From contig JAJZET010000269.1 in the NCBI GenBank assembly GCA_021805685.1, forward strand, positions 1 to 39,313: a DNA stretch of 39,313 bases, in the 5' to 3' direction. The position numbers and the translations under genes were made by a program. The stretch's first letter is position 1, and every line of letters starts with the position of its first letter. The DNA is from Pseudomonadota bacterium. Its GTDB lineage: Bacteria > Pseudomonadota > Gammaproteobacteria > Xanthomonadales > Rhodanobacteraceae. Below, piece after piece: positions 6,064 through 39,186 of this stretch. The notes beneath the pieces were generated by a model. It worked only from the letters and a program-made list of their open reading frames with translations. It was not told the DNA's origin and did not search any database.

Positions 6064-8937
6064 ATGACCGGTCATTTGACCGACCGTTATCTGCTCGCCA
6101 AGCGCATCGCCATGGGTGTGCTGGAGACCGTCGCGTCCAGGCGCGACGCCGCGATCGACCGCGAATGCGGCGGTGACGAAGCGCTGGCGCGCGAAGTGCG
6201 CTGGATGATCGCCGCGATCGAAAGCAGCCACACCGCCACGCTGCCGTTGGCGCCGGGCGATACGGTGGACCTCAGTGGCCTCGATGCGCAGGCCAACGCG
6301 CCGCGTCGCTACCGCCTCGTGCGCCGGCTCGGCGAAGGCGGCATGGGCGTGGTCTACCTTGCCGAGCGCGAGGATGGCGGCTTCGTGCAGCAGGTGGCGC
6401 TGAAGGTGCTTGGCGCCGGGGCGGTCGGATCACCCACGTTGCAGGAGCGTTTCGCGCGCGAGCGGCAATTGCTGGCACGGCTGGAGCACCCCGGCATCGC
6501 GCGCCTGCTCGACGGCGGCATGCTGGCCGACGGCCAGCCCTTCCTGGCGATGGAATACGTCGAGGGCGAGCGCATCGACGCGTGGTGCGAGCGACACGGG
6601 CTGGACCTGCGCCAACGCGCGCAGCTGCTTCTCAAGGTCTGCGCCGCGGTGGAGTATGCGCACCGCAACCTGGTAATCCACCGCGACCTGAAGCCCGCCA
6701 ACATTCTGGTCGATGCGCGGGGCGAGCCCAAGTTGCTGGACTTCGGCATCGCCCGGCTGATCGACGAGGAGGCGGTGGAGGGCACGCTCACCGTCACCGG
6801 CCAGCGCGCGCTCACGCTGGCCTACGCCAGCCCGGAGCAGATCGAGCAGCAGCCGTTGACCACCGCGGTGGACGTCTACGGGCTCGGCATGGTGCTCTAC
6901 CAGCTGATGGCGGGACAACGGCCATGGCAGCACATCACCACGCCGCACCAGCTCAGCCACGCCATCGTCGCCGGCGAGGTCGTGCCGCCCAGCCGCAGTG
7001 CGCGGACGGGCGACGCACTGCGTCACGCCGTTCCCGCCGACATCGACGCCATCGCGCTGAAGGCGCTGCGCCGCAAGGCCGGCGAGCGCTACGCCAGCGT
7101 GGACGCGCTTGCCGCCGACTTGCGCAGGTGGCTGGCGCAGCGTCCCGTGCTGGCGCGGCGCGGCCAGCGCCTGTACCGTGCGCGCCGCTTCCTGCAGCGC
7201 AACCGCTGGCCGCTGACCGCCGCCGCCGCACTGCTGCTCAGCGTGCTGGCCGGCCTGGCCACGTCGCTCTATTCGCTGCACCAGACGCGTGTGCAGCAAC
7301 GGCTGGCCGAGCAGCGGCTGCTGCAGCTGCAGCGGATGGTGCAGTTCCAGCAGTCGATGTACGACAGCGTGGACATCGACGCGATGGGACATGCCGTGGT
7401 CGCCGCGACCCGGCGCCAAGTCGCCGCGTCGCTCGCCTCGGCGCCAGGGGCGGTGGTGGACGATGCGCTGGGCAAGGCCTTCGCCAGCGTGCAGGCCACC
7501 GACATCGCACGCGCGGCGATGGACGATTACGTGATCGGCCATACGCTCGACGGCCTCGACCGTGCCTTTGCCGATGCGCCCCTGCTCGATGCCGACCTGC
7601 GCCAGTCGCTGGCGCGTGCGCTGCTTGGCATCGGCAGCTACGCGCATGCCGCCGCCGAGTTGCGCAAGGTGCTGGCGGTGCGCGCCAGGCTGCTGCCTGC
7701 CGGCGACCGCGGTCAGCTTTCGGTACGCGTGGACCTGGCGCAGGCGCTGGAGAAGCAGGGGCACACGGCGGCCGCGGCCGCCATGTACGCCCAGGCCGAA
7801 AAGCTGGCGCGGCTCGAGCCGCCCACCGACGCCCTGCGCGTGGCCGCCGAATCCGGCGTGGCGCGCATGCTGGTGGCGCAGGGACACCTGCGGCAGGCAT
7901 TGCAGCAGCAGGACGCGTTGTACGCCGCGCTGAAACCGCGCGTCCCCGCCACCAATCACGGCCTGATGCGATTGCAGCGCGACCTGGTAATGACCTTGAT
8001 CGGACTCGGCCAGCGCGATCGCGCGCTGCAGCTGGCCGGGCCGCTGGTGGCGCTGGACCAGCGCGCGCTGGGCGCGCAGAACCCGCAGACGTTGGACACC
8101 ATGCTGGTGCAGGCCAGGCTGCTGCATTATCGCTACGAATACGAGCGCTCGCTCGCACTCGCCCGCCAGGTGGCCGCCGTCCGCACCCAGCGCCTGGGCG
8201 CGGATCACCCCGATACCTTGGCCGCCGCCTTCATGGTGGCGACGGACGAGGTGTACCTGGCGCAGGATCCCAAGGCGCTTGCCGCAGCCGGCGCGGACCT
8301 GCAACGCGTGATCGACGCGCGTCGCCGCGTGTTGGGCGTCGACCATCCCGACACCATCGCCGCCGAAACGGTGATGGTGCGGCTGCTGGCCAAGCAGGGC
8401 AGCCATGCCAAGGCTGCGGCCGAACGGCGCGCCTACTACGCGCAGGCGATCGCCTTGGAACGGCAGATCCTCGCGGCCCACGAACGCCAGCTCGGCGCCG
8501 ACCATCCCAAGACCCTGATGGCGCTGGGCAGCCTGGCCAGCCTGCTGGACGAGGCCGGCCAGTACGGGCCGGCGTTGGCCGAGGCCAAGCAGTGCCTGGC
8601 CGGCCAGCTGCGCGTGCTGGGGCCGCAGCACCCGATGATCTCCGCCACCCGCACCCTGATCGGCGACATCGAGGACGACGCCCACCAGTGGCAGGCCGCG
8701 CGAGACGCCTACCGGCAGGCGCTGGATCAACGCGAGCAATTGCTGGGCTTGCGCGATGCGCACACCATCGAAAGCGCCTCGCGCCTGTACTCCGTGCTGA
8801 TGGAGTTGCACGACACCGGTGCGGCCGCCAAGGTGCGCCAGCGCTACATGGACCCGGTGATCGCGATGGATCCGAAGACGCTCAACGCCGCCATGCGCAG
8901 CGTCCGCGACGAGGCGATCCGCATGCTGGGATCGTAG
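6064..8937 (+). CDS. Membrane Ser/Thr protein kinase with TPR-like C-terminal region
   Basis: Protein of 957 residues. The kinase domain runs from about 83 to 365, with glycine loop GEGGMGVVY (90-98), invariant lysine in VALKVL (K114), catalytic HRDLKPAN (D208) and DFG at 226-228, so the kinase should be active. An N-terminal stretch of about 80 residues resembles that of planctomycete/Xanthomonad-type kinases. One membrane segment lies at about 381-404, placing the long C-terminal half outside the cytoplasm. That half contains repeated TPR-like units with recurrent LGADHP, LGVDHP or LGPQHP turns, suggesting a protein- or peptide-binding sensor. The ATG at 6064 is preferred over an in-frame codon at 6034. 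Kinases of this type often sit beside an ECF sigma factor, but none is visible here. Substrates are unknown. Confidence 0.9.
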   Translation: MTGHLTDRYLLAKRIAMGVLETVASRRDAAIDRECGGDEALAREVRWMIAAIESSHTATLPLAPGDTVDLSGLDAQANAPRRYRLVRRLGEGGMGVVYLAEREDGGFVQQVALKVLGAGAVGSPTLQERFARERQLLARLEHPGIARLLDGGMLADGQPFLAMEYVEGERIDAWCERHGLDLRQRAQLLLKVCAAVEYAHRNLVIHRDLKPANILVDARGEPKLLDFGIARLIDEEAVEGTLTVTGQRALTLAYASPEQIEQQPLTTAVDVYGLGMVLYQLMAGQRPWQHITTPHQLSHAIVAGEVVPPSRSARTGDALRHAVPADIDAIALKALRRKAGERYASVDALAADLRRWLAQRPVLARRGQRLYRARRFLQRNRWPLTAAAALLLSVLAGLATSLYSLHQTRVQQRLAEQRLLQLQRMVQFQQSMYDSVDIDAMGHAVVAATRRQVAASLASAPGAVVDDALGKAFASVQATDIARAAMDDYVIGHTLDGLDRAFADAPLLDADLRQSLARALLGIGSYAHAAAELRKVLAVRARLLPAGDRGQLSVRVDLAQALEKQGHTAAAAAMYAQAEKLARLEPPTDALRVAAESGVARMLVAQGHLRQALQQQDALYAALKPRVPATNHGLMRLQRDLVMTLIGLGQRDRALQLAGPLVALDQRALGAQNPQTLDTMLVQARLLHYRYEYERSLALARQVAAVRTQRLGADHPDTLAAAFMVATDEVYLAQDPKALAAAGADLQRVIDARRRVLGVDHPDTIAAETVMVRLLAKQGSHAKAAAERRAYYAQAIALERQILAAHERQLGADHPKTLMALGSLASLLDEAGQYGPALAEAKQCLAGQLRVLGPQHPMISATRTLIGDIEDDAHQWQAARDAYRQALDQREQLLGLRDAHTIESASRLYSVLMELHDTGAAAKVRQRYMDPVIAMDPKTLNAAMRSVRDEAIRMLGS

Positions 8938-23858: not shown

Positions 23859-23872
23859 TTGACCGCGGTCAA
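23859..23872 (+). promoter_or_regulatory. FNR/Dnr-type operator upstream of cyc2-like gene
   Basis: TTGACCGCGGTCAA is a perfect 14-base inverted repeat of the TTGAC-N4-GTCAA form bound by CRP/FNR-family regulators such as NNR/Dnr/Anr. Its centre is 76 bases before the start codon. A -10-like TACCAT at 23894-23899 puts the predicted transcription start near 23907, so the site sits at about -41.5, the class II activation position. The same motif occurs upstream of the azurin gene. Confidence 0.75.
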
Positions 23873-23941
23873 GGGCGCCGGAAGCGATCGGACTACCATT
23901 GCCGCACAAATTCTTAACGACAATGGATGGAGACCACCCAC

Positions 23942-25321
23942 ATGTTCGCCATGACGAAGCATCACCCTTCAGGAGAAGGGAGAAACATCTCCTGGTTGCA
24001 CAAGCTCGCCATCGCGGCGGGCCTGCTGCTCGCACCCACCCTGGTGCTGGCCGTGCCGGCGTATGCGCGGCAGACGCATCAGCCCTGCGCCGCCTGCCAC
24101 GTCGGCGGCTTCGGCCCCGAACTGACGCCGTTCGGGCGGGAGTTCAAGATCAACGGCTACACCATGAGCGTTGGCAGCGACACCAAGGTGCCGCTGTCGG
24201 CGATGCTGGTCGAGTCGTTCACGCAAACGGCCAAGGCACAGACAGCGCCACCGGCCAATGGTTTCGGAACCAACAACAACCTCGAGTTGCAGCAGGCGTC
24301 GGTGTTCCTGGCCGGTCGGCTGAACGATCACATGGGCACCTTCGTCCAGGCGACCTATTCGGAAAACGGCGGCCTGCTCGGCTGGGACAACGCCGACGTG
24401 CGCTATGCCAGCCCGTTCAGCCATGGTGACCACAGCGGTACCTGGGGTATTTCGGTCAACAACAACCCCACGGTCAGCGATGTCTTCAATTCGGCGCCGG
24501 CCTGGATCTACCCCTACATGGGTCCCGACCTTGCCCCCGGCGCACCGGCAGCGCCGATGCTGTTCGGCGGCCTCGGTGGCCAGTCGATCGGCGCCACGGC
24601 CTACGTCCAGCTTGATGGCAAGCTTTACCTCGAGGCGGGCGGTTACCGGTCGCTCTCGGTGGCCTGGTCGTACCGTGTCAACGGCCCGTATGACGGCAAG
24701 CTCTCCGGAGTGGCTCCGTATGCCCGTGCCGCCTACACCTGGCAGGTGCCGCACGGCAACCTGACGCTGGGCGGGTTCCTGCTGGACATGAAGCGCGGCG
24801 CAGTCGGCAGCGATCTGAACGGCAACGTCATTCCGTTGGCCGGCCCGACCGACAACTACAACGACGTAGGGTTGTCGGGTGACTACCAGTTCTTCAAGGG
24901 CGACCACATCGTCACGGTCAGCGGCCTGTACGTCCACGAGAGCCAGACGCTCAACAACACCTACGGTGGTGGCGGCTCGTCCAACCTGCACGACAACCTG
25001 GACTCGTTCAATCTCAAGGGCAGCTACTGGTTCCGCAACACGTACGGCTTCACCCTGGGCCAGTTCATCAACAACGGGAGCAACGACCTGACGCTGTACG
25101 GCAACAACGGGTCGCCGAACACCCAGGGCGGCACGCTGGAGTTCGACTACAACCCGTTCGGCAAGGCCACCTCCTGGATGCAGCCGTACGCCAACGTCCG
25201 CTTCGGGCTGCAATACACCTACTACACCAAGTTCAGCGGTCTCGTTCACAACGTGGATGGCGCCGGACGCAACGCCAGCGACAACAACACCTTGTATGCG
25301 TACATCTGGCTGGCGATCTGA
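23942..25321 (+). CDS. cyc2: Cyc2-like fused monoheme cytochrome c-porin (outer membrane)
   Basis: Protein of 459 residues. The ATG at 23942 has GGAG 9 bases upstream; an in-frame ATG at 23927 is the alternative. A signal peptide (hydrophobic core about 22-40) ends near AYARQ. Immediately after comes one heme-binding CAACH at 49-53, then PELTPFGREFKINGYTM. This ARQT...CxxCH...LxxFGRxFKxxGY pattern is the hallmark of Cyc2, the outer-membrane Fe(II)-oxidising cytochrome-porin of Acidithiobacillus and neutrophilic iron oxidisers. The remaining 380 residues alternate polar and aromatic residues with Gly/Asn-rich turns, as expected for a beta-barrel ending in YAYIWLAI; length fits Cyc2 (about 400-490). 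The electron donor is not proven by sequence; Fe(II) is the family precedent. The gene stands alone, with its own operator and terminator. Confidence 0.78.
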   Translation: MFAMTKHHPSGEGRNISWLHKLAIAAGLLLAPTLVLAVPAYARQTHQPCAACHVGGFGPELTPFGREFKINGYTMSVGSDTKVPLSAMLVESFTQTAKAQTAPPANGFGTNNNLELQQASVFLAGRLNDHMGTFVQATYSENGGLLGWDNADVRYASPFSHGDHSGTWGISVNNNPTVSDVFNSAPAWIYPYMGPDLAPGAPAAPMLFGGLGGQSIGATAYVQLDGKLYLEAGGYRSLSVAWSYRVNGPYDGKLSGVAPYARAAYTWQVPHGNLTLGGFLLDMKRGAVGSDLNGNVIPLAGPTDNYNDVGLSGDYQFFKGDHIVTVSGLYVHESQTLNNTYGGGGSSNLHDNLDSFNLKGSYWFRNTYGFTLGQFINNGSNDLTLYGNNGSPNTQGGTLEFDYNPFGKATSWMQPYANVRFGLQYTYYTKFSGLVHNVDGAGRNASDNNTLYAYIWLAI

Positions 25322-25355
25322 GCAACAATCTGCAAACACTTGGATGAGCGATTGC

Positions 25356-25380
25356 GGGGGCCGGTCGATGACCGGCCCCC
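25356..25380 (+). terminator. Intrinsic terminator of the cyc2-like gene
   Basis: An 11-base-pair perfect stem (GGGGGCCGGTC / GACCGGCCCCC) with a GAT loop starts 35 bases after the stop codon and is followed by GTTTGCTTTC. It isolates the cyc2-like gene from the region downstream. Confidence 0.85.
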
Positions 25381-25383
25381 GTT

Positions 25384-25849
25384 TGCTTTCCGGGCATTTC
25401 ATTCCAGGCATCCGGGCTACGACCGCGCTGCCAGGGGGCACCTGGGTTGATCGGTGCCGGTCACATGCAAGGCATCCGCCGAAGCGGTCCCGCATGGCAG
25501 GGTCGAAGTCCAGCAGAACCCCGCGTCCGCCCCGGCAACCGGGGCAAGGCACCGACGCCGATCGCAGCCCCGGAAGGACCATCATTGCCATGGCCTGCTG
25601 CGCGTCAGGTCCTGTCGCCCGGGTCCGCGGTTTGCGGGTACGCGGCACTGGGGCGCGGACTCATGCAGCGCCTGCCGTATCGCATCCATGAGCCCCTGGC
25701 GATCACGGGTCTGACCCACCACGCGTGCCGCCCTTCATGGCCGATGCCCCGTGCTCCTGGCGACGCTTGCGCACCATCGATGGCAACGTACGGCCCAGTC
25801 ATCCACGGCTGCGGCTCGGGTCTGCCGTCCTTGCGGGTGACCTGGGCGG
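25384..25849. other. Region without recognisable gene
   Basis: Several overlapping open frames exist on both strands, but all are Arg/Pro/Cys-rich, have no ribosome binding site and show no recognised motif. Nothing is annotated here. Confidence 0.5.
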
Positions 25850-26455
25850 CTGGCCTGACCGGTCGGGTGGCGCACCCCAGTGCCCGCGCCCTGATTCCCG
25901 TGGCACCATGCCACGACGCACCCACGTGCCGCGTCGTGGTAGTCCAGCCGCATGGCGCCGAGCCGCGATACATCCGCCCCGTGGGCCAGTCGTGAGCGGC
26001 TGCGTCCAATGCGTCAATCGGATTTGCCGTCGTGGAGCGCTGGTTCGCCACGTCTCCGCCAGCGCGCACCAGCGCCGCGGCATGGTCGGAACAGGCGCCG
26101 CGGCAAGCATCGTCGACGATCCATCGCGCGGCCGGCGGGCGCAGGCCGACCACCCACGCCACGGCATGATCCGCACGCCTGTGCTTCGATCACACGGAAT
26201 GCGCGAAGGACATCTTCAGCAGCCACGGCGAAGTGCGGCGGCGTGCGCATCCGGTCATTCGGTCTGCACGGGCTGGCTGGGCGGTCGCATCGCTGCGTCG
26301 GCGCCCGGCATCCAGCCCGGCGGGCTTCCGCGGCGGGGGCGTCGCAGGCACGGCGACGGTTGCCGCGTCGCCGATGGTCCGTGCTGCTGCGTGGCGCTGG
26401 CGATGCGGTCGCAGCGGACCGCCATCGCCATGGCCGGTCTGGCGCGGATCGACGT
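25850..26455 (-). pseudogene. Possible decayed universal stress protein (UspA-like) gene
   Basis: Read on the minus strand, fragments in different frames resemble parts of a UspA domain in the right order. There is an N-terminal piece TSIRARPAMAMAVRCDRIAS (like TDxSxRADRAlxxAvxLA). A middle piece AAALVRAGGDVANQ...NPIDALDAAAHDW follows (like alpha3-beta4 of UspA). After a frame change comes HGADVSRLGAMRLDYHDAARG (like the HGADLIVLGxxG nucleotide loop). At least two frameshifts are needed, so any such gene is dead. Universal stress proteins often belong to FNR/Anr regulons, which suits the neighbourhood. The similarity is judged by eye only and could be chance. Confidence 0.3.
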
Positions 26456-26469
26456 GTAAATCGCGGGAG

Positions 26470-26505
26470 CAAAACGCAAGAGACGCCATCGTGGATGGCG
26501 TCTCT
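26470..26505 (-). terminator. Intrinsic terminator of the azurin gene
   Basis: On the minus strand a 12-base-pair perfect stem (AGAGACGCCATC / GATGGCGTCTCT, 26479-26505) with a 3-base loop is followed by TGCGTTTTGC. It lies about 80 bases beyond the azurin stop codon. Confidence 0.82.
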
Positions 26506-26583
26506 GGGTAGCGGGTCCGGAGGCCTTGCGCTGTGTGCGGCTTGCTTGGCCTGCGGCTCCGGTCTGGCTGGTGCGGATTCCTG

Positions 26584-27030
26584 CTATTTCAGCTCGATCG
26601 TGCCGTGCATCAGCGATGCGTGGCCCGGGCAGGTGCAGAAGAAGGCGTAGGGGACGCCGGGCTTGAGCGCCGAGACCTTGAACGTGGTGGAGGCTTGCTC
26701 ACCGCCGCCGATCAGCTTGGTGTAGGCGACCACGGCGGCATCGTTCGGCTTCACGTAGTCATGATCGATGCCGGCGGTGGCGCCGTCGCTGATGACGGCC
26801 TGCTCATCGGCGGCCGGGGCGATCACCACGTTGTGACCCATGACGGAGCGCGGCATGCTGCCCACGTTCTTCAACGTCACGGTGAACTTGCCGCAGGCCT
26901 TCGGGATCGTGATGGTCGACTTGTCGAAGCGCAGGGCGTCGTTGCCGGTGACGGTGGTCGAGCAGGTGGCGGCCCAGGTCGGGGCGGCGGCGAGGCCAAG
27001 CAGCAGCAGGGCGAAAATTTTCAGTTTCAT
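26584..27030 (-). CDS. azu: Azurin (type 1 blue copper protein)
   Basis: Periplasmic one-electron carrier of 148 residues with a 20-residue signal peptide (cleavage after PTWA). The mature 128 residues number exactly like Pseudomonas azurin: disulfide C3-C26 and copper ligands H46 (in VMGHN), C112, H117 and M121 (in FCTCPGHASLMHG). Position 114, normally Phe, is Cys, giving Cys-Thr-Cys at the copper site. A GGAG ribosome binding site lies 7 bases before the ATG. An FNR/Dnr-type box sits upstream and a terminator downstream, so it is a single-gene unit. Azurins feed electrons to nitrite reductase, cytochrome peroxidase or terminal oxidases. The nearby cyc2-like gene with the same operator type suggests that it may carry electrons inward from the outer membrane (inference). 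Confidence 0.95.
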   Translation of the reverse strand: MKLKIFALLLLGLAAAPTWAATCSTTVTGNDALRFDKSTITIPKACGKFTVTLKNVGSMPRSVMGHNVVIAPAADEQAVISDGATAGIDHDYVKPNDAAVVAYTKLIGGGEQASTTFKVSALKPGVPYAFFCTCPGHASLMHGTIELK

Positions 27031-27067: not shown

Positions 27068-27108
27068 AGGCTACGCTGCTGCCCAATTCGTCCATTGACC
27101 TGAGTCAA
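27068..27108 (-). promoter_or_regulatory. FNR/Dnr-type operator and -10 of the azurin gene
   Basis: TTGACTCAGGTCAA as read on the minus strand (27095-27108) is a TTGAC-N4-GTCAA inverted repeat. Its centre is about 72 bases before the azurin start codon. A -10-like TAGCCT at 27068-27073 predicts a start of transcription near 27060, again placing the operator at about -41.5. The spacing and half-sites match those of the cyc2-like gene. Confidence 0.78.
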
Positions 27109-37199: not shown

Positions 37200-37382
37200 C
37201 TAGCGGCCTCGGGTCGGGCCGGTGCTCCTATTTCCGCCCGATTTCATACCGTGATTGCCCGAGGGCCACCCCGCCCGGGCATTGCCGGGGCCGCGACCGC
37301 GGCTACCAGCTGGTGCGGTCTTGCCGCCCGCCCCGGGGCCTGCCGACCGGCCGCTACCTGATCCGTTGCTTCCCTTTGCCAT
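37200..37382 (-). CDS. Small Gly/Ser-rich basic protein with WPS motif
   Basis: Sixty residues beginning MAKGSNGSGSGRSAG and containing AGWPSGNHGMKSGGNR. The low-complexity Gly/Ser/Arg composition with a single WPS followed by SGG-N-R resembles, from memory, short annotated proteins of unknown function found on integrative elements and prophages of Pseudomonas and Xanthomonadales. No folded domain is evident. A weak purine-rich site (GAGAAG) lies upstream of the ATG. It ends one base after the stop of the convergent 345-residue gene and is divergent from hipBA. Because compositional bias alone can produce such frames, confidence is moderate. Confidence 0.45.
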   Translation of the reverse strand: MAKGSNGSGSGRSAGPGAGGKTAPAGSRGRGPGNARAGWPSGNHGMKSGGNRSTGPTRGR

Positions 37383-37538
37383 CTCATCTTCTCGTCATCG
37401 CCCCGATTGGGCACCGTGAGGTTGCGCCTCAAAGGCGCTGGGATAAGCCCGTTTTTTGCACTGACACGAACGCTGCGCGCCCTCCAGGGGCCGAGGTACT
37501 GGCGGTACGCAATCGCGCCGCCCTTTTGCGCCGCAGGA
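37383..37538. other. Intergenic region between the small Gly-rich gene and hipBA
   Basis: No gene is evident. It holds one short stem-loop, GCGCCT-CAA-AGGCGC at 37425-37439, followed about 11 bases later by a run of T residues (GTTTTTTGC), which could weakly terminate rightward transcription before the hipBA promoter. Confidence 0.4.
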
Positions 37539-37602
37539 TTGCAAATTTGACCTTTAGATCAAATAATAGGCCTTGGAACCGAAATATTGACGTATATATC
37601 AA
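37539..37602 (+). promoter_or_regulatory. hipBA promoter with two operator-like palindromes
   Basis: In an AT-rich patch, two repeats of the form TTGAC-N6-ATCAA occur: TTGACCTTTAGATCAA (37547-37562) and TTGACGTATATATCAA (37587-37602). Their centres are 40 bases apart, about four DNA turns, so they face the same side of the helix. A plausible promoter is TTGCAA (37539-37544), a 17-base spacer and AATAAT (37562-37567), which places the first repeat between -35 and -10. The second repeat ends one base before the hipB ATG. This fits cooperative autorepression by HipB, as known for hip operons. Confidence 0.6.
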
Positions 37603-37603
37603 A

Positions 37604-37861
37604 ATGCAAACCGTGCTGGAACTTGGCGAAGCTGTAGCCACTAAGCGGCGTGCCCTGGGCTTGAAGCAGGGCGACGTCGCCTTGCGTGCTGGCATTCCCC
37701 AGGAAACCTTGTCCCGCTTCGAACGGGGCAAGTTGGCTGAGCTTGGTTCGCGGAAGTTACTGGCGGTGCTTGCCGCCCTTGGGATGGAGCTTCAGTTCGT
37801 GGAGTTGGGATCATCCGGTTCATTGGATGAGCTGCGCCGTGAGCGCGGGGGGCAAGCATGA
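37604..37861 (+). CDS. hipB: HipB-type antitoxin / repressor
   Basis: Xre-family helix-turn-helix protein of 85 residues: the helix-turn-helix is at about 10-55 (LGEAVATKRRALGLKQGDVA, ETLSRFERGKL). The tail (LAALGMELQFVEL) forms the short beta-strand used for dimerisation in HipB proteins. It should neutralise the HipA kinase encoded next and repress the shared promoter. The ATG at 37604 directly follows the second operator-like palindrome; there is little ribosome binding site, so expression may be low or leaderless-like. Its stop codon overlaps hipA as ATGA. Confidence 0.88.
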   Translation: MQTVLELGEAVATKRRALGLKQGDVALRAGIPQETLSRFERGKLAELGSRKLLAVLAALGMELQFVELGSSGSLDELRRERGGQA

Positions 37862-39186
37862 GACTGGCCGTGCATGTACTCGGTCGCGAAGTTGCCACGC
37901 TGGAAGCGGTCGGTGACTTCAAGAGCACCATGACGTATCACGATGGTGTCGCCACAGACGACTTCGTGTCACTGACCATGCGCGTGCGACGTGCCCCTTG
38001 GGTCTGGGACGATGTGCTGCACCCCATCTTCCAGATGAATCTTCCAGAGGGGTACCTGCTCCAAGTGCTACAGGAGCAGTTCGGCCCCCATATCGGCGCC
38101 AGCCCCATGGCCCTGCTGTCGGTGATCGGCCGGAACATGATCGGGCGTGTCCAGGTGGCCCCAGCTGGCGCGAGGCTGGATGAGCCCGCCACTCCAGTGG
38201 ACGTCGCAGCCCTGCTACAGGGCGACAACTCAGAGGAAGCCTTTGCGGAACTGGTGCGTCGACACGCGGCCAGTGGTGTATCGGGCGTGGTGCCAAAGTT
38301 CCTTGACGATGCGGCCGAACATGTCCAGCTCGGACCGCACAAGAAGGTCACCTTGCTCACTCACAGGCACATCATCAAGGGCTCTTCGCAGCGACTGCCC
38401 TTCGTTGCCTTGAACGAGCACCTGTGCATGCAGGTCGTGCGCCAGGTCATGCCTGCCGCGGTAACGGAGGTTTCTCACGACGGCCAGGCACTCGTGGTTC
38501 ATCGTTTCGACGTGGACGAACATGGAACTCGCCACTGGGGTATGGAAGACTTCTGCGCATTGCTTGGCCTGCGCCCGGCAGCCAAATACGAAACCACCTG
38601 GGAGCGCATCGCCAAGGCCGTGCGCGATCACGTACCGGCAGCGAACCGCGCGGACGTGTTCCGCCAGATGGCGAGCTCGCTGCTGCTTAGCTACGCCGTG
38701 CGCAATTCCGACTGCCATGCCAAGAACCTGGCGCTGCTCTATACCCGTCACGACGATGTGCACTTGGCACCCGCTTACGACATGATCACCACGGCCGCCT
38801 ATCCCGATTACGTGAAGAATCCCCCGGGCATCTCTTTCATGGGCAAAAAGACCTGGAGCCCAGGCAAAAGCCTGCAAACCTTCATCGCCGCCACCTTCGG
38901 TCTGCCGCCACGCGAGCAGGCCGGCATCGTTGAGCGGATCGGGGATGCCATGGCCGACGTCGGCCCTCAGGTCCGCAGAGCGATGGCCGAGCGCCCCGGA
39001 TTCACGGAAATTGGCAAGCGCATGCTGCGCGCCTGGCAGGAAGGCCTTGAAGGACTCCGCGACAAGCGGGTCTATGCCTTGGGCGGCATGGTCTGGGGTG
39101 AGGCGTACAGCGGGTTTTCCGAACCAGAGCCTGTCAAGACGAAGCACCTAGTCATCGGTCGCTCTGATCTGCTGGGAAGACACTAA
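37858..39186 (+). CDS. hipA: HipA-type Ser/Thr kinase toxin
   Basis: Protein kinase-fold toxin of 442 residues; relatives phosphorylate aminoacyl-tRNA synthetases (GltX in E. coli), causing growth arrest and persistence. The N-terminal subdomain (1-120) includes FQMNLPEGYLLQ. The Gly-rich loop reads SGVSGVVPK at 139-147. The ATP-binding Lys is in HRHIIK (K174), the catalytic block RNSDCHAKNLAL lies at 282-293, and the metal-binding APAYDM at 304-309. In E. coli the loop is SVAGAQEK with the regulatory phospho-serine first. Here that position is Gly140, while Ser142 is present, so the inactivating phosphorylation may differ. It overlaps hipB by four bases. The target is unknown. Confidence 0.9.
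   Translation: MRLAVHVLGREVATLEAVGDFKSTMTYHDGVATDDFVSLTMRVRRAPWVWDDVLHPIFQMNLPEGYLLQVLQEQFGPHIGASPMALLSVIGRNMIGRVQVAPAGARLDEPATPVDVAALLQGDNSEEAFAELVRRHAASGVSGVVPKFLDDAAEHVQLGPHKKVTLLTHRHIIKGSSQRLPFVALNEHLCMQVVRQVMPAAVTEVSHDGQALVVHRFDVDEHGTRHWGMEDFCALLGLRPAAKYETTWERIAKAVRDHVPAANRADVFRQMASSLLLSYAVRNSDCHAKNLALLYTRHDDVHLAPAYDMITTAAYPDYVKNPPGISFMGKKTWSPGKSLQTFIAATFGLPPREQAGIVERIGDAMADVGPQVRRAMAERPGFTEIGKRMLRAWQEGLEGLRDKRVYALGGMVWGEAYSGFSEPEPVKTKHLVIGRSDLLGRH

Follow-up and report, generated by a model that had tools for sequence, protein, structure and literature searches.

A conserved FNR/ANR-type box ahead of cyc2 in Rhodanobacter and its relatives suggests low-oxygen control of a Cyc2-like outer-membrane cytochrome

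Homologues of the outer-membrane cytochrome Cyc2 were found in Rhodanobacter of the enrichment culture KS (He et al. 2016, via PMC5566968), and homologues from Rhodanobacteraceae have been placed beside the Cyc2 of Acidithiobacillus ferrooxidans (PMC10654088), which belongs to Cluster 2 (PMC8406198). A Cyc2-like protein is reported in Rhodanobacter together with the inability of an isolate from culture KS to oxidise Fe(II) independently (PMC11366258), and the Rhodanobacter of this culture has been proposed to be a mixotrophic or chemolithoheterotrophic Fe(II) oxidiser (PMC12622760). Characterised Cyc2 proteins oxidise Fe(II), and their expected architecture is a 16-stranded outer-membrane barrel fused to a cytochrome (PMC8406198). 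Cyc2-like genes also occur in many bacteria that are not known to oxidise iron, perhaps for other functions, and their role is left open in PMC5566968 and PMC8406198. Since Rhodanobacter and Rhodanobacteraceae homologues are on record (PMC5566968, PMC10654088), the gene described here is not itself new; it encodes a known kind of protein in a known host genus. What the present analysis adds is a conserved box of the low-oxygen type before cyc2 and a neighbouring azurin gene with the same kind of box. No published report of FNR/ANR control of cyc2 was found among open-licence papers.

The gene lies in a window of 39,313 nucleotides, i.e., the whole stretch of DNA that was analysed, from a genome of 3.07 Mb (294 contigs, 87.2% complete) that holds a single match to the window protein. 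The host, which the initial annotation had placed in Rhodanobacteraceae, is a Rhodanobacter; a 99% identical gene is found on the Rhodanobacter MAG contig DAIDKO010000064.1. The cyc2-like gene is a single open frame closed by a stop codon (Table 1), and an alternative in-frame ATG at 23927 would extend the product to 464 residues. The layout claimed by the initial annotation was located in this one protein, from a leader and ARQT through one CAACH and LTPFGREFKINGY to a beta-rich remainder. The hydrophobic leader, judged by eye, ends in LHKLAIAAGLLLAPTLVLA and is followed by A37-V-P-A-Y-A-R-Q-T45; a second CxxCH is absent from the protein.

Table 1. Coordinates of the cyc2-like gene, the azurin gene and their candidate promoter elements in the window
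Feature	Position	Strand	Details and basis
FNR/ANR-type palindrome TTGACCGCGGTCAA, starts 83 bp before cyc2 ATG	23859..23872	.	
-10-like hexamer TACCAT, 21 bp after cyc2 box	23894..23899	+	by eye
cyc2-like gene, outer-membrane monoheme cytochrome fused to predicted beta-barrel	23942..25321	+	459 aa; homologues
AVPAYARQT, Cyc2 signature with Y replacing F	24050..24076	+	motif definition PMC8406198
CAACH, only heme c attachment site	24086..24100	+	residues 49-53
PEL...LTPFGREFKINGY segment, links cytochrome part to barrel	24116..24160	+	PEL 59-61, LTPFGREFKINGY 61-73
Beta-rich part, predicted outer-membrane barrel of ~16-17 strands, low confidence	24161..25318	+	
Azurin gene, tail to tail with cyc2	26584..27030	-	148 aa with leader; Copper-bind; TIGR02695; PDB azurins
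-10-like hexamer TAGCCT, 21 bp after azurin box	27068..27073	-	by eye
FNR/ANR-type palindrome upstream of azurin	27095..27108	.	

Cyc2 is described in PMC8406198 by a length of at least 365 residues, a signal peptide, exactly one CXXCH, the signature AXPXFAR[Q/K][T/Y] just upstream of it and a PXL motif 4 amino acids downstream. The window protein has 459 residues, a leader and a single heme site. Its PXL is PEL, with five residues between H53 and P59, and P59 and L61 are invariant. In the signature, Y stands for F and all other fixed positions fit; a literal screen as in PMC8406198 would drop the protein. Six other sequences of the group to which it belongs (clade A, see below) have F at this position, and a Cyc2 recognised by its operon (L171, with ARQL) likewise breaks the literal signature, which is therefore not an absolute test. 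The protein sequence had no match in Pfam, NCBIfam or the PDB, so that its identification as Cyc2 rests on homologues. Two PDB matches of the family profile (E up to 10), one at E 0.021 over 32 leader and heme-proximal positions and one at E 0.6, were discarded. Across an alignment of 22 sequences Q44, C49, C52, H53, P59, L61, T62, G65, F68, K69, G72 and Y73 are invariant. Together with the protein's conservation across genera, this speaks against a chance arrangement. An ordinary porin with a vestigial heme site might go unmatched by Pfam and NCBIfam profiles in the same way, but the CxxCH is invariant and its surroundings are strongly conserved across the same alignment, in which much of the barrel is divergent, and we regard this reading as extremely unlikely.

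The Cyc2 assignment of the initial annotation is supported by a tree of 68 rows from a careful search, in which L019 (N-masked start) and L031 (split gene) were left out. The window protein falls into clade A, 15 rows that group together (support 96/97) and comprise the window, Rhodanobacter records, genomes of the same family and L017, whose record is labelled Proteobacteria; its nearest relatives in the tree are uncharacterised proteins. Clade A is part of a 53-row side (support 100/99) that also contains the Cyc2 of L171, recognised as such by an operon with COX1, COX2 and a rusticyanin-type gene (E 1e-39; 137.2 bits, below the family cut-off of 146.7). The remaining 15 rows show CHFxxFP by letter in 8 cases and close variants in most others; we take this side to be the neutrophile type, Cluster 1-like. 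The motif (apart from its Y in place of F), the profile matches over the full length and the position in the tree together support membership of the window protein in the Cyc2 family.

The description of the C-terminal part as beta-barrel-like stood only in part: it is beta-rich and has outer-membrane folds as its nearest neighbours, while the models reached low confidence. AlphaFold gave a mean pLDDT of 26.2 with 5 close sequences and of 40.2 for the mature part with one distant sequence (pTM 0.40; 17 strands of at least 6 residues). Among the 50 Foldseek matches listed, classed by reading, nearly all were outer-membrane proteins or complexes, two amine oxidases apart, with TM of at most 0.44. 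Hydrophobic alternation, averaged over the 68 rows, yielded 22 peaks at a threshold of 2.0, versus a mean of 13.2 and a largest value of 20 in 300 shuffles; at 1.5 there were 25 versus a largest shuffled value of 28, at 2.5 there were 13 versus 13, and for clade A alone the signal was not clear. These models are consistent with a barrel topology, which we infer for the window protein. The C-terminal parts of the Cyc2 proteins compared in PMC5566968 are described there as lacking significant sequence homology. At profile level, homology between the two tree sides is visible: their barrels match by hhalign (97.1%, E 5e-11, 306 columns; 53 rows versus 11 of the 15 CHFxxFP-side rows, four having been left out), with 0.2% for a reversed control. 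Profile comparison with Porin_O_P (16 porins) gave 1.0% for the main 53-row side and 30.9% for the CHFxxFP side, and the likeness to OprO/P described by Keffer et al. was thus not reproduced for the window's side of the tree.

Conserved across genera, the protein has homologues in 19 of 61 genomes searched (its own and 60 relatives). Clade A is present in 13 genomes, namely 7/15 of the genus, where it is patchy, and 6/22 others of the family. Five distant matches within the family (32-35% identity) form clade B, and one weak match lies outside the family. In all five clade-B loci (L033-L037) the cyc2-like gene is followed by genes for a monoheme cytochrome c, a protein unmatched in Pfam and an ECF-type sigma factor; this neighbour set was defined by clustering, and Pfam was applied to L033. 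In the class as a whole the family profile matched 66 of 369 genomes (own included), one group at full length and another mainly in the cytochrome segment. Nine plasmid records hold relatives with 31-42% identity, including Acidiphilium, Caballeronia, Polymorphobacter and one that is labelled Acidithiobacillus ferrooxidans. The Cyc2-like matches of an A. ferrooxidans plasmid (CP084173.1) and of Acidiphilium pACRY03 (NC_009469.1) are equal in identity, E-value and score, owing either to a shared plasmid or to a mislabelled record. Phage origin of cyc2 was rejected, as no phage record matches. One viral contig (L090, IMGVR_UViG_3300029955_001365) carries a distant Cyc2-like gene that runs off the contig end, possibly host flank or a misclassification; a pattern scan of viral contigs for further homologues returned a single stretch, which has no frame of 250 codons.

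The palindrome TTGAY-N4-RTCAA (TTGA-N6-TCAA core) occurs at only two sites in the window, ahead of cyc2 and ahead of azurin, whereas 100 shuffles gave a mean of 0.01-0.03 sites and none with two. A distance of 21 bp, as seen between each box and its -10-like hexamer, is also that of class II FNR promoters. A TANNNT hexamer 21-22 bp past the box is clear, by eye, in 6 of the 14 boxed loci (the window, L016, L017, L019, L023 and L032) and weaker elsewhere. Within the 400 nt scanned upstream of cyc2, a perfect box is present at 14/17 clade-A loci, or at 12/15 when L016, a near-copy of the window locus, and L029, near-identical to L028, are set aside. It is absent over the same distance from L018 and L020, which are close sisters, from the split gene L031 and from all 5 clade-B loci. 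The inner bases of the box, even the C/T and A/G positions, vary among clade-A loci. Counted within 300 nt of the signature and without L016, the half-site TTGA was found in 12/16 clade-A loci (the box of L023, included in the 14/17, lies just beyond this distance) versus 6/51 others (0/5 in clade B, 6/46 in the rest), and each of the 255 alternative half-sites built in the same way in at most 1/16 of clade A. At L031 (G022:C2:578231-579519), the locus without a perfect box in which cyc2 is split into two overlapping frames, the genome is also the only one of the 13 with clade A that has a RuBisCO match. The 6/46 are distant Cyc2 genes from other families of the class (L133, L134, L135, L140, L142 and L145) with the box within 300 nt upstream.

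Genome-wide, 16 box sites were found versus 3 for a reversed control pattern. They lie near hemN, an OmpW-family gene (the family to which we take OprG to belong), a BON/CBS/stress-protein cluster, phaC and others. At least one is inside a coding frame (L089), which indicates that the box is also present by chance or in further roles. Four of the 16 boxes fall within 5 kb on one contig (G000:C137; L084) with a Crp/Fnr-type regulator nearby, and the frames around them show, by eye, BON, CBS, universal-stress and Nramp-type likeness. Core Anr targets in Pseudomonas include hemN, azu and oprG (PMC6588701). Three Crp/Fnr-type regulators over the cut-off are encoded in the genome, one with an FNR-type C-x2-C-x5-C, a second without this motif but with a similar helix, and a third that is CRP-like by eye. 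The two features that would be expected of an FNR/ANR-regulated promoter, a palindrome conserved upstream of the gene and an FNR-type regulator encoded in the same genome, are thus both present. On these sequence features, a low-oxygen regulator of the FNR/ANR type, acting at the candidate palindrome, most likely drives transcription of cyc2, and we infer promoter activity at this box.

Azurin is identified by TIGR02695 (equivalog, 165 bits versus a cut-off of 105.1) and Pfam Copper-bind. Its gene is separated from cyc2 by a gap of 1.26 kb (25322-26583) with no recognised gene inside. The earlier view that cyc2 stands alone therefore needs qualification: a rus operon is missing, but azurin lies tail to tail at this distance, and both genes have an FNR/ANR-type palindrome. 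The sister contig L016 also has azurin downstream of cyc2, tail to tail and 2.5 kb away; there the stretch between the two genes (L016:7221-9677) is ~1.2 kb longer than in the window and holds a 439-codon frame. Upstream of cyc2 are a LysE-type gene and a nucleoside-transporter gene, and positions 37313-39186 of the window hold an HTH protein and a HipA-like kinase as a HipBA-type toxin-antitoxin pair; neighbour-gene models at the loci follow a rough, uncurated rule of G+C by codon position. A full rus operon at the window locus was rejected, as a Pfam search with 30 frames of the window showed no cox, cytochrome c or rusticyanin family; Cup has no Pfam family. No other CxxCH protein occurs among 16 frames picked from the 15-34 kb part of the window, and rusticyanin had no match in the own genome.

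Comparison of 37 family genomes gave no significant co-occurrence with clade-A cyc2 for azurin (5/13 clade-A genomes versus 7/24 others, p 0.72), NirK (8/13 versus 8/24, p 0.16), NarG (5/13 versus 4/24, p 0.23) or RuBisCO (1/13 versus 2/24, p 1.0). Azurin as a general Cyc2 partner was rejected on these counts. Among 20 azurin loci, the azurin box was confined to those of the own genome, its sister and a single genome that lacks cyc2; the link with azurin is restricted to the window species and its sister. As no partner is significantly associated and the azurin box occurs in few genomes, the conserved feature of clade-A cyc2 is the regulatory box and not a fixed partner. In the own genome RuBisCO and NarG gave no match and NirK none over the cut-off, although at 87% completeness such absences are not conclusive. 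The results for NarG and NirK led us to reject a link to denitrification in this genome, and a nitrate-based assay would for the same reasons suit the strain poorly. Of its two COX1 genes, one is in two pieces and the other, CcoN-like by eye, encodes a cbb3-like oxidase subunit.

It is tempting to propose that the gene encodes a Cyc2-type electron gate that is turned on when oxygen is low and passes electrons from Fe(II) inward in heterotrophs most of which lack RuBisCO, and we give this proposal about an even chance. Against it weigh the Y in the signature, the clade-A and clade-B loci that have no perfect box, the lack of a conserved azurin partner, the low confidence of the structure models and the KS isolate that could not oxidise Fe(II) independently (PMC11366258). 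The protein would consist of a short N-terminal monoheme cytochrome c and a beta-barrel, with the heme part probably forming a plug on the periplasmic side. An FNR/ANR-type regulator acting at the palindrome 83 bp upstream would drive cyc2, and at low oxygen Cyc2 would pass single electrons across the outer membrane to periplasmic carriers. The donor would most probably be dissolved Fe(II). A different extracellular donor under the same low-oxygen control, such as Mn(II), reduced humics, an electrode or a partner cell, would agree with the occurrence of Cyc2 homologues in organisms not known as iron oxidisers (PMC5566968, PMC8406198), but no feature of the locus points to one, and we consider it clearly unlikely. 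In the proposed Fe(II) gate, the azurin encoded next door, with its box of the same kind, would be the likely first acceptor in the window species, and electrons could move on to a high-affinity oxidase; relatives could also pass them to cytochrome c peroxidase or to enzymes of denitrification. The host being a heterotroph in whose genome no RuBisCO was found, the gain would be auxiliary energy or protection rather than autotrophy.

The direction of electron flow could also be the opposite, with Cyc2 serving under anoxia as an electron outlet to an extracellular acceptor, much like an FNR/ANR-controlled respiratory gene. The low-oxygen type box at cyc2 would suit such an outlet, as would a genome in which neither NarG nor NirK was detected as above, but that genome is 87% complete and the search for nitrate and nitrite reductases covered NarG and NirK. 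Characterised Cyc2 proteins are moreover Fe(II) oxidases, and the potential of Cyc2 PV-1, 208 mV, is high for reducing Fe(III) minerals (PMC8406198), which makes outward flow very unlikely in our view. Protection is a further use to be weighed: the gate might drain Fe(II) electrons to cytochrome c peroxidase (and azurin) and thereby remove both peroxide and Fe(II) where oxic and anoxic zones meet. A di-heme protein adjoins cyc2 as the next gene on the same strand in L018 (9473-10516) and L020 (9419-10462) and tail to tail in L030 (6525-7637). The L018 protein is CCP_MauG by Pfam, those of L020 and L030 belong to its blastp cluster, and in L030 cyc2 and the di-heme gene each have an FNR/ANR-type box (the latter at 6438-6451). 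ccpR is among the Anr-controlled genes of P. aeruginosa (PMC6588701), and the scarcity of RuBisCO in clade-A genomes also fits a protective role. The adjacency, however, is confined to 3/17 clade-A loci, two of them the close sisters, and is not seen in the window; protection as the main function is rather unlikely. We retain inward transfer of electrons from Fe(II) as auxiliary supply as our preferred reading.

A broader hypothesis, to which we give somewhat less than an even chance, is that the FNR/ANR low-oxygen regulon of Rhodanobacteraceae includes Cyc2 as a permanent member, next to genes such as hemN, azurin and cytochrome c peroxidase. Cyc2 would act as an anaerobically induced gate of heterotrophs, with Fe(II) as auxiliary donor or with electron export, and not in lithoautotrophy; other lineages might have arrived at the same control convergently or by shared descent. 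The box suggests when and why bacteria that are not specialists might use Cyc2. Conserved in a partly culturable family, it supplies a concrete condition and a candidate regulator, and it shifts the expected role of Cyc2 from iron autotrophy to an auxiliary, oxygen-controlled supply of electrons. This is also relevant to the debate on what Rhodanobacter does in nitrate-reducing, iron-oxidising enrichments, and with the azurin gene boxed in the same way a vague functional guess becomes a testable one.

Among known systems, the Cyc2 of rus operons (Acidithiobacillus/Acidiferrobacter/Acidihalobacter type, PMC10654088) shares with the window protein the single CxxCH after AxPx[FY]ARQ, a similar length and full-length homology, and the window protein lies on the tree side of the operon Cyc2 L171. 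The two differ in surroundings: the rus arrangement (cyc2, then cyc1, cup, coxBACD and rusticyanin) does not occur at the window locus, which lacks the cyc1-cox-rusticyanin operon and has an opposite-strand azurin and a low-oxygen type box instead. Cyc2 proteins with a CHFxxFP-type heme region have a homologous barrel (97.1%) and the N-terminal motif, but form the separate 15-row tree side (support 100/99). The fixed operon of clade B, with its small monoheme cytochrome c and ECF-sigma-like gene, likewise differs from the window locus. By description, the Cyc2 of Rhodanobacter from culture KS (He et al. 2016, Huang et al. 2021) agrees in genus and protein family (PMC5566968, PMC11366258, PMC12622760), whereas the portions of these publications that treat it mention neither a promoter box nor an azurin link. 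The Anr regulon of Pseudomonas resembles the present genome in that hemN, azu and an OmpW-family/OprG-type gene are boxed, and differs in that the relevant part of PMC6588701 does not name cyc2 as a target; in most clade-A loci, the box stands ahead of cyc2 itself.
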